This document shows, one piece after another, positions 61,545-64,000 of a stretch of 64,000 nt of DNA (position 1 is its first letter; each line of letters starts with the position of its first letter). The position numbers and the translations under genes are program-made. The notes beneath the pieces were generated by a model. The model searched no databases, was not told where the DNA came from, and was given only the letters and a program-made list of their open reading frames with translations. This DNA comes from Luteitalea sp. (GTDB lineage Bacteria; Acidobacteriota; Vicinamibacteria; Vicinamibacterales; Vicinamibacteraceae), in NCBI GenBank assembly GCA_009377605.1, contig WHTT01000021.1, positions 1 through 64,000 of the forward strand. The letters are read 5' to 3'.

Positions 61545-61620
61545 GTCCCCGTCGTCCAGAGGCCCAGGACGCGGCCCTTTCAAGGCTGAAACACGGGTTC
61601 GAATCCCGTCGGGGACGCCA
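61545..61620 (+). tRNA. tRNA-Glu (anticodon TTC)
   Basis: The 76-base cloverleaf has acceptor GTCCCCG/CGGGGAC, anticodon stem CGGCC/GGCTG around CTTTCAA (anticodon TTC), T-arm ACGGG-TTCGAAT-CCCGT and encoded CCA. Confidence 0.96.
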
Positions 61621-61623
61621 ACG
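61600..61623. repeat. Direct repeat 1, probable attachment site in tRNA-Glu 3' end
   Basis: A 24-base sequence beginning CGAATCCCGTCGGGGACGCC, identical to 61702-61725. It covers the T-loop to CCA and three bases beyond. Confidence 0.8.
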
Positions 61624-61701
61624 TCCTTGCGACGCTTCGGCCGTTGGCGTCCCCACCGGTCTTCCCGTTGGCGGCGCGCTCTGCGAGCGCCCCAGCGGCA
61701 C

Positions 61702-61725
61702 CGAATCCCGTCGGGGACGCCAACG
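61702..61725. repeat. Direct repeat 2, copy of tRNA-Glu 3' end
   Basis: An identical 24-base copy 102 bases downstream of the first. An inverted 13-base copy (CGTTGGCGTCCCC, 61642-61654) lies between and could pair with either. Confidence 0.8.
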
Positions 61726-61830
61726 CCTTTGGAAACAACACGCCGCTGAAAACCCTGCCCAGTGTGAGACTTGCCGTGAGTTCGTACGCGCGACCCTCGT
61801 CGGTCGGCGTCAGTGTGATGCGACCGTCGA

Positions 61831-63382
61831 TCAATTTCTGGACCACTTGCCGGCTCCAGCCGACTTGACGACGCAGGAGGATCGCCACTCGGTGAGCCGT
61901 GCCCGCACCTGCCGCTCGAGCATCCGTCGATCGGTCTTCGCGAGGTGCGCTGGGGCTGTCAGGACTTCGAGTTCGCGCGTGAGGCCCGCCAGCCGTGCTT
62001 CCCGTTCACGCAGCGCCGCGACGAGCGACGGCACGTCGCCGCCACCTACAATCGCCGACGTAAGGCGGGCAACTTCGAGTTGAAACAGCGACCGCTCGCG
62101 TTCCAACTCATCCCGCGGTATGTCGGTCGGCTGCGCTGCCAGCGCCTTCAGTTGGTCCACAACCCGCCTCGTCACATCTTCGAGCACGTCTGTACTGAGA
62201 ACGTCCGCCTCGAGCATGTCGAACAACGCCGCATCGACCGCCTCCAACGGAACCTCGAGGTGGTTGGTGCACACCGTCCGCCCACGCACGTGATAGCTGG
62301 AACAGGCGTACCACGCCGTCCGTTTGCGCCCGCTCGCCCGTGTCCGGACAATGATGCTGCCGCCACATTGCCCGCAACGCGCGAGCCCTGAGAGCAGATA
62401 CTTGCTGGCCACACCGTTCGGTGGTCTGCCCCACAACCGGCCTCCGGTGCCGCGCACGTAGGTTTCCCGCGATCCGGCGAGGCGGGCGTGCGCCGCGTTC
62501 CACAGGTCGTCAGAAACGATCCGGAGTTCGGGCGCGGAGAGCCGCAACCACTCAGCCTCTGGCGTCGACCGCTGTTCCTTGATGCCCCACTGGTTCCGCT
62601 TCTTGGTTCGGTTCCAGACAATCTCGCCTCGATACAGCGGGCGGTAAAGGATCGCCCGCACGGACGACGGTGCCCAGCCCTTCGGCCGTTGCTGCTGTGG
62701 GCGTGGGCAGACAGCGCCGTCGGCGTTCAGGGCAACCGCGATCGCGCGAAGCCCATGGCCCTGCCCGCACAGCTCAAAGATTCGCCGAATGACGGCCGCC
62801 TCTGACTCGTTGATGCGACGTTCGACATGAGACCGGCACGGCTGGCCATCCGGACCGGGCGTCATGATGTCGATGTTGTCGTAACCGAACACCCGGCCGC
62901 CGGTGACCTGCCCCGCCCTCGCTTTGCGGAGCATGGCATCGTAGGTGCGCTGGCGGGCCTTCTCTCGCTCGAGCTCGTCGGCGAACGCGGTGACGGACAG
63001 CATGAGCTTGTCCGTGCGGCTGTCGAGCGTTCGTTCCCGGTCCTCCAAGTAGAAGAACACCCGAACGCCAGCCGTCACGAGCTGCATGAGCGCGTAGGCG
63101 GTCTCGATCGACTCGCGGCCCAGGCGCGATTCCTCCGACATGATCAAGACCTGGAACTTCGGATGGGGTTTCAACGCGTTCATCAGCCGCAGGAAGTCCG
63201 GCCGAGTGGCGAACTCCGCTCCGCTGATGTTGTCGTCGCTGAAGAGGCAGTCGTCCGCCACCGTCCACCCCTTGCGCGTGGCATAGGCTTTGGCGTGCTC
63301 GATTTGCCAGGTGACGGACTTCGCTTCCTCCGACACCGCCGCTGACACAGGGCTTTTCCGCGCGTAGATGGCCGCGAATCAT
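61831..63382 (-). pseudogene. Serine recombinase, apparently frameshifted at both ends
   Basis: The intact frame 61831-63348 encodes a large serine recombinase: resolvase domain (SEESRLGRESIETAYALMQL, TAFADELEREKARQRTYDAM), recombinase domain, and the zinc ribbon CGQCGGS ... CSSY. The catalytic serine lies upstream of the GTG at 63348, in IYARKS (AGC 63352-63354), but the codon before it in frame is TGA; ATG at 63382 is one base out and deleting one A gives MFAAIYARKS. At the 3' end the usual tail (LLRRQVGWSRQVVQKLIDGR) continues in another frame from ~61880. Probably inactive, or assembly errors. Confidence 0.8.
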
Positions 63383-63573
63383 GGCCTGCGTTCCTTTCCG
63401 CTCCGCTTGCGCTCCGCCTTCAACGCGCCTTGCGCCTGCAACCACGCCTGAAGAGCGCGCCGTACCTGTTCACCTTTCGGTGTCCCGTGGCGCTCGGTCA
63501 CGACGTCCATCGCCGCGCGAATCGTTGGGCTGAGGCGAACGGTCAGGATATAGTCCTTCTGGTCCCCAGGCAT
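63379..63573 (-). CDS. Small ribbon-helix-helix-like protein
   Basis: The 64-residue protein runs MPGDQKDYILTVRLSPTIRA then MDVVTERHGTPKGEQVRRAL then a Lys/Arg-rich tail. A short strand followed by two helices is consistent with a CopG/Arc-type DNA-binding fold, not proven. Its stop overlaps the recombinase ATG by 4 bases (ATGA), so it may regulate or assist the recombinase and belongs to the mobile element. Confidence 0.65.
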   Translation of the reverse strand: MPGDQKDYILTVRLSPTIRAAMDVVTERHGTPKGEQVRRALQAWLQAQGALKAERKRSGKERRP

Positions 63574-63649
63574 GTGGCTAGTGTAATACTGCGGCTACTT
63601 GGGTGTCAACTGTCTTCGACAGCGATGTGAGAAAGTGGAGAGCAGTGGA

Positions 63650-63844
63650 ATGACGAGGAGAGAAGCGGCGGACCTCACGGTCGGCGATCGCATCGTGTGG
63701 GACTCGCCGAGTCCACGGGCGCGGCTGGCCGCCGGGACGATCGTCGGTCGCGGGTCGACGTCCCTCACGATCGGGTGGGACGATGCCGACTACTACCCGG
63801 TGTACGACCTGGATGATTGTGCGTTCCTGACGAGGGCATCATGA
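63650..63844 (+). CDS. Small hypothetical protein
   Basis: 64 residues (MTRREAADLTVGDRIVWDSP ... VYDLDDCAFLTRAS), acidic, with a beta-rich SH3-like pattern (TVGDRIVW, GTIVGRGSTSLTIGW). GGAG lies 9 bases before the ATG. I know no family. It is divergent from the RHH-like gene and its stop shares TCATGA with the convergent gene at the right edge, suggesting mobile-element cargo. Confidence 0.6.
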   Translation: MTRREAADLTVGDRIVWDSPSPRARLAAGTIVGRGSTSLTIGWDDADYYPVYDLDDCAFLTRAS

Positions 63845-64000
63845 AGGACGTTGGGAGATCGCCGAAAGCACGGCGCCATGAGTATCAACGGCCTTGACCA
63901 CTTGGTACCACAGTTGGCGCCGCGCGGTTTCTGCAGCCGTCCACTGCTCAATCGTTGCCGTTTGCCCCGCCACGTCGCTACGGGCGACAGCCTCAAAGGT
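63839..64000 (-). CDS. 3' end of an unidentified gene
   Basis: Open without stop from the window edge: 53 codons read leftward from 64000, ending TGA (63841-63839). The visible part (VARSDVAGQTATIEQWTAAE, TARRQLWYQVVKAVDTHGAV) is helical and has codon use like real genes here. Product unknown; the 5' end is outside the window. Confidence 0.6.
   Translation of the reverse strand, partial: TFEAVARSDVAGQTATIEQWTAAETARRQLWYQVVKAVDTHGAVLSAISQRPS

Follow-up and report, generated by a model that had tools for sequence, protein, structure and literature searches.

Behind a tRNA-Glu gene lie two neighbours that we regard as distinct: a tRNA-tail unit of about 100 bases, which would have arrived as a short insertion, and an integrative element, E1, which would have been inserted by its own large serine recombinase (LSR) at the copy of the tRNA tail that the unit carries, and would now be immobile. 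We assign this reading a probability of roughly 0.6. tRNA genes are common landing sites of bacterial mobile DNA. The locus holds repeats of the tRNA 3′ end, an element whose two ends can be located, a recombinase gene with two frame breaks, and one member of a family of units whose tRNA copies are specific to the adjoining tRNA; from these we infer that the units arise by insertion with target duplication. The window, that is, the whole stretch of 64,000 nucleotides, comprises bases 1–64000 of contig C21 (81,465 bp) in a 6.8-Mb draft genome of 382 contigs, and the C21 sequence past its end was analysed as well. Handles G001–G161 denote other genomes of the same order, the present one being G000.

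The tRNA-Glu Locus and Its Repeats

The locus is organized around the following features:

61545..61620, forward strand: intact tRNA-Glu(TTC) gene with encoded CCA (ARAGORN; Rfam RF00005, 62 bits)
61600..61623, forward strand: first repeat, c1, the tRNA-Glu 3′ end from the T-loop to CCA plus 3–4 nt
61702..61725, forward strand: second repeat, c2, which duplicates the tRNA tail in direct orientation and serves as the attachment core of E1

The initial annotation had reported a 24-base copy of the tRNA-Glu 3′ end 102 bases downstream, and the copy is indeed exact: the 24-mer CGAATCCCGTCGGGGACGCCAACG occurs at 61600–61623 and at 61702–61725, a spacing of 102 that leaves 78 bp in between. A further copy had been suspected to the right of the window, where we find CCCGTCGGGGACGCCAA at C21:75234–75250. 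The 13-mer GTCGGGGACGCCA has exactly four exact copies in the 6.8-Mb genome, at C21 positions 61608, 61710, 75237 and 77271; because all four lie on this one contig and on the same strand, the tRNA-tail repeats are not a product of chance.

The Recombinase Gene and Its Relatives

Two reverse-strand features belong here:

61703..63375, reverse strand: LSR pseudogene (two frame breaks; domains; tblastn)
63379..63573, reverse strand: 64-aa ORF upstream of the LSR, its stop codon overlapping the misplaced ATG of the LSR (ORF list); without Pfam match

The serine recombinase is oriented toward tRNA-Glu, as had been claimed, and its Resolvase (PF00239), Recombinase (PF07508) and zinc-ribbon (PF13408) Pfam domains score above the cut-offs. 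Its catalytic motif IYARKS is stranded upstream of any start, again in line with the initial annotation: the motif is preceded by an in-frame TGA (63379–63381), the ATG at 63380–63382 overlaps that TGA but belongs to another frame than IYARKS, and the first start is a GTG behind the motif. With no in-frame start between TGA and IYARKS, the catalytic serine falls outside any translated frame. At the other end, tblastn with homologues follows one frame from IYARKS (63375) to about 61879, where the frame changes, and then another to 61703, inside c2. Of the C-terminal tail that had been placed in another frame from ~61880 to 61580, the frame switch thus stands and homology extends to 61703, while from 61703 to 61580 the frame simply reads on through the 78-bp unit into the tRNA; the spacing of 102, being divisible by 3, keeps it in phase with both repeats.

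A close LSR homologue is encoded in 17 of the 162 genomes of the order, the present genome counted, and a complete tRNA-Glu lies at the end of the LSR gene in 10 of 18 further loci. In most of these ten, the last residues of the open frame form a peptide of the type ASPTGFEPVFQP; such C-termini are the translated antisense strand of the tRNA, the intact homologues lying directly at tRNA-Glu. Several intact homologues begin at an ordinary Met a few residues before IYARKS, and the catalytic IYARKS region is intact in the homologues. Given these tRNA-antisense ends and Met starts, the LSR gene studied here is broken at both ends, with c2 as its true end. Judged against intact relatives, both frame breaks are lesions, and the earlier view of a defunct integrase with two independent frame breaks is borne out. 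That both are instead assembly or sequencing errors in an intact recombinase seems unlikely to us: the genome is a draft assembly, and the rest of the LSR frame is open and 50–59% identical to intact homologues, but two separate breaks fall within a single gene, close to other relics such as the decayed second LSR tail past the third repeat.

A different serine recombinase, with 589 residues open, is found at tRNA-Gln(CTG) on contig C82 of the present genome (L350:8284–10050). Its frame runs through c2, the whole unit and c1 into the tRNA gene, so that the last 50 or so residues would derive from the repeat and the tRNA antisense strand.

Element E1 and a Probable Tandem Stack

Two further features define the element:

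61713..64000, no strand assigned: integrative element E1, part within the window, continuing to C21:75239
61724..61733, forward strand: E1 attP arm CGCCTTTGGA, paired with its inverted counterpart TCCAAAGGCG on the left side of the far repeat C21:75234

E1 measures 13.5 kb, from 61713 to C21:75239, between the second and the third repeat; c2 and the far repeat have 17 bp in common, and the element is bounded by tRNA 3′-end copies. Joining its ends yields an attP of the form TCCAAAGGCG-N24-CGCCTTTGGA, whose arms form a perfect inverted repeat of 10 bp with the core at its centre, which argues that E1 spans the full 13.5 kb; random arms matched such perfect 10-bp arms in 19 of 5000 trials. The central dinucleotide of the attachment core in c2 is presumed to be 61711–61712. 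The same arrangement recurs in G045, with arms TCCAAAGGG/CCCTTTGGA, a 15.5-kb element and a second recombinase past its far repeat. Among the genes of E1 are those for a Gp49-type toxin and for helix-turn-helix proteins. The far repeat and the homologues directly at tRNA-Glu bear out the earlier assignment of this tRNA gene as the integration site; a clean empty island site was absent among the relatives compared, in which flanks were non-homologous or other elements present.

These features suggest the following course of events: E1 would have been integrated by its own LSR at a copy of the tRNA-Glu 3′ end, in an ordinary serine-integrase integration at c2. The LSR gene would end inside the attachment site, and the arms would correspond to inverted repeats around the T-stem/acceptor junction of the tRNA. 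Start and tail frame of the LSR would have been lost later, after the integration of E1, and with this loss the element is probably no longer self-mobile.

Past the far repeat, the sequence matches stretches that lie directly behind tRNA-Lys and tRNA-Ala genes elsewhere; in our reading these stretches probably represent the end of another recombinase gene, and a second decayed LSR element seems to follow E1 in tandem. We read the locus as a stack consisting of the tRNA, the unit, E1, a 2-kb relic of the second element, and the fourth repeat at 77271. The relic between third and fourth repeat (C21:75239–77271; L005:13240–15272) encodes a ParE-type toxin and a DUF5343 protein, the latter of which matches the PADLOC candidate defence model PDC-M34A (2.9e-22).

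Architecture of the tRNA-Tail Unit

The interval between c1 and c2 is occupied by the unit:

61621..61701, forward strand: tRNA-tail unit consisting of spacer, inverted tRNA-tail copy and GC-rich hairpin (covariance model; family members)
61645..61664, reverse strand: inverted tRNA 3′-end copy inside the unit, TGGCGTCCCCACCGGTCTTC

The covariance model, of which the present locus is a seed, matches 61609–61722 with 108 bits. The order of parts is as follows: the tRNA ending in CCA is succeeded by 13–38 nt, often with a small hairpin, and by an inverted copy of its last 20 nt; then come AGGC, a GC-rich hairpin and GGCAC (the hairpin-flank variants CCG and AGCC are present in this genome), and finally a direct copy of the same 20 nt. 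Across units this architecture measures 77–100 bp with a conserved hairpin; hairpin part and geometry recur, the tRNA-copy parts vary by place, and the direct repeats differ in length past CCA by 0–5 nt. The folds are very stable (z about −4.6 to −5.1).

Of 37 units compared, 35 have an inverted copy that matches the adjoining tRNA more closely than inverted regions from the other units match it (p = 2.5e-7), and in the 15 units with a decayed direct copy the inverted copy still fits the tRNA and not the decayed copy (p = 6e-4), in a set that was gathered partly with a model including the pairing of tRNA tail and inverted copy, the pattern search and tRNA scan not selecting on pairing alone. 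Lys-CTT and Leu-GAG units have exact direct copies, yet a poor inverted copy. Units with exact direct copies tend in general to lower inverted-copy means (8.7 versus 10.1 in the others, one-sided p 0.07; as a correlation, rho −0.29, p 0.085), a trend that is weak and not significant.

Distribution of the Unit

Within the order, units lie behind Glu, Gln, Ala, Asp, Arg, Ser, Leu and Lys tRNA genes. With the 78-bp segment as query, we found a second copy in the genome (C107:9812–9923, 98%), without adjacent tRNA, and, at a tRNA-Glu gene of another family, a unit with 75% similarity. Some 85,000 species genomes were scanned for tRNA-Glu genes with another copy of their tail, but no complete tRNA, further downstream; two loci matched, L087 and L086, whose sequences are identical to those of G030 and G118, respectively. 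The covariance model added units behind tRNA-Asp, tRNA-Gln, tRNA-Arg and tRNA-Ala. A pattern of the constant parts (TCAGG, 25–55 nt, GGCACGARTCCC) matched 34 times in 22 of the 162 genomes of the order, compared with 2 matches for the reversed pattern that served as control; about 26 of the 34 were real units by inspection, which brought in Ser and Leu tRNAs, and in the phylum outside the order the pattern gave no excess over the control. Scanning tRNA flanks in the present genome revealed that 7 of its 41 tRNA genes are followed by an exact direct copy of 21 nt or more, with two or three degraded units besides; G048 has about six units, mostly degraded, among 44 tRNA genes. Tandem duplicates occur in L118 (G070:C150) and L119 (G072:C117), with periods of 104 and 108; the one in L119 lies behind a displaced 3′ fragment of a tRNA-Ser. 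Copies without a tRNA exist in C107, G048 and G109, and the architecture is also present where no integrase is seen adjoining.

Rfam gave no family above the gathering cut-off in the unit regions except tRNA. The hairpin of a tRNA-Ser unit (L139:1555–1615) aligns over its full length with the Pseudomonas sRNA family P35 at 34 bits (cut-off 70), a likeness that is probably due to chance. Viral contigs lacked the c1–c2 pattern, and with a shorter hairpin pattern the filter-passing sequences among the matches listed were three copies of one sequence with no tRNA-copy structure. A seeming likeness of the unit to L008, L009 and L011 was rejected as a chance match to coding sequence. Literature of partial coverage, with most subscription journals outside it, yielded no description of such units, and this family of ~100-base tRNA-tail repeats is apparently undescribed.

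For the copy on C107 we considered a 102-bp circle integrated at GGGGACG, which stands on both sides of the block, and rejected it: the left flank of the block, CTGGYTCCAACTCGC, also precedes the second unit of G048. Judging from this shared flank, the C107 copy is more likely, though not proven, to be the displaced far end of an island stack. Three kilobases from it, a tyrosine recombinase ORF (L004:12974–13888) overlaps a tRNA-Ser(GGA) gene at the latter's end and apparently marks a further tRNA island. In three genomes the motif CCGGACACATGGGTAA, which resembles an IS481-type transposon end, is found some 17–25 nt past a tRNA tail or c2: after tRNA-Glu in L013, after the unit's c2 in L007, and after the c2 of a tRNA-Arg(ACG) unit in L349.

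Origin of the Unit

The 78 bp between c1 and c2 had been proposed to be what is left of an excised element, a view that is not supported, since the same architecture, with copies of the respective tRNA, lies behind many tRNAs and E1 itself is still in place between the second and third repeat. A scar of an element excised or deleted between two att repeats would agree with the two exact att-like repeats that flank the segment and with a hotspot that holds at least two elements; it is nevertheless very improbable, because size and conserved hairpin recur behind many tRNA kinds, two genomes carry the unit as a tandem duplicate, and an enlarged version between the two repeats was not seen. We favour instead a short non-coding repeat that would insert behind tRNA genes, leaving a direct copy of the last 20 or so nucleotides of the tRNA on its far side, and that would also contain these 20 nt in inverted orientation, in a copy later maintained or readjusted to match the tRNA. 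Such a small, tail-duplicating insertion is favoured because a single element is unlikely to have brought in the tails of seven different tRNAs as exact copies. A clean empty site for the unit was absent among the pairs compared, the flanks being unrelated or the unit present in both. The variation in repeat length counts against a transposase with fixed stagger, which would not give it; casposon-type target duplication was rejected, as no terminal inverted repeats were seen and the repeat length is variable.

In the present genome, an LSR gene or recombinase fragment adjoins c2 at tRNA-Glu, tRNA-Gln, tRNA-Ala and tRNA-Lys, but in G057 the element is placed between tRNA and unit: c2 is accordingly a usable landing site that is not always chosen. 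The direct copy can be used as an additional attachment core, and it is this copy, not the tRNA gene, that E1 occupies. The unit would have been present before E1 arrived; in the reverse order, it may have been inserted after the element.

Several processes could match the inverted copy to each tRNA: selection on the hairpin, hairpin-templated mutation or tRNA-primed copying would all suffice. The poor inverted copies in the Lys-CTT and Leu-GAG units indicate that the copy is not always made at insertion. One possibility, which we hold doubtful, is that after a plain insertion the copy is produced, without any function, by hairpin-templated mutation, that is, template switching at an imperfect palindrome. 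The poorer inverted copies of exact, apparently young units point this way, but that trend is weak and not significant, and the origin of the unit and its conserved hairpin are left unexplained; two-step template switching alone was rejected for this conserved AGGC...GGCAC hairpin. Somewhat less probable is a functional RNA within the tRNA transcript, whose inverted copy would pair either with the tail of the tRNA or with the copy downstream and would thereby control tRNA 3′ maturation or termination. It would account for the very stable folds, for an inverted copy that tracks the tRNA even where the direct copy has decayed, and for tRNA-Leu(GAG), where an orthologous unit follows a terminator-like hairpin in two species of one genus; against it stand a patchy distribution over a minority of tRNAs, different ones in each genome, the competition of such pairing with the tRNA fold, and the copies without a tRNA. 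We also think it unlikely that the units form a new class of bacterial element templated by tRNA, which would acquire the last 20 nt in inverted and direct form, perhaps by tRNA priming, and thereby build a second attachment site. Improbable, finally, is copying through RNA, in which tRNA-primed reverse transcription would rewrite the inverted copy to match the tRNA used: the inverted copy does span the last 20 nt of the respective tRNA and is specific to it, and primed copying would explain its change with the host tRNA, but the likeness to a retroviral primer-binding site is a resemblance only, the units are not known to have a linked reverse transcriptase, and no precedent was found in the literature.

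Implications and Comparison with Known Systems

A repeat with a copy of its tRNA's tail would constitute a second landing site, which other mobile elements could use in place of the tRNA gene and which would change how islands are mapped and dated. How one repeat family comes to bear a different, matching tRNA sequence at each place is now testable at about 40 loci, and the LSR family provides serine integrases directed at a conserved site in tRNA-Glu.

E1 shares with LSR integrative elements of the phiC31/Bxb1 type the Resolvase, Recombinase and zinc-ribbon domains, the inverted attP arms around a short core, and the integrase gene adjoining the attachment site. It differs in that the target is a tRNA gene, which is unusual for serine integrases, that the last codons overlap the tRNA, and that the gene is broken. 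The integron attC core RYYYAAC/GTTRRRY finds its nearest stretch, by inspection by eye only, in CGCCAAC/GTTGGCG, which does not fit. Genomic islands at tRNA genes that grow by tandem accretion likewise have stacked elements whose ends carry the tRNA 3′ end as direct repeats, whereas here one repeat belongs to a separate 100-bp unit and not to the island. Like REP, BIME and MITE repeats, the units are short, non-coding, palindromic and present in several copies per genome, but they stand behind tRNA genes and bear copies of the adjacent tRNA that differ from place to place; among the GTAG/CGTC-tagged REP families (PMC3733652) none is of this kind. With a retroviral primer-binding site the unit shares a stretch starting with TGG that is complementary to the 3′ end of a tRNA; this is a likeness only, the unit being bacterial and adjoining the very tRNA gene whose tail it copies.
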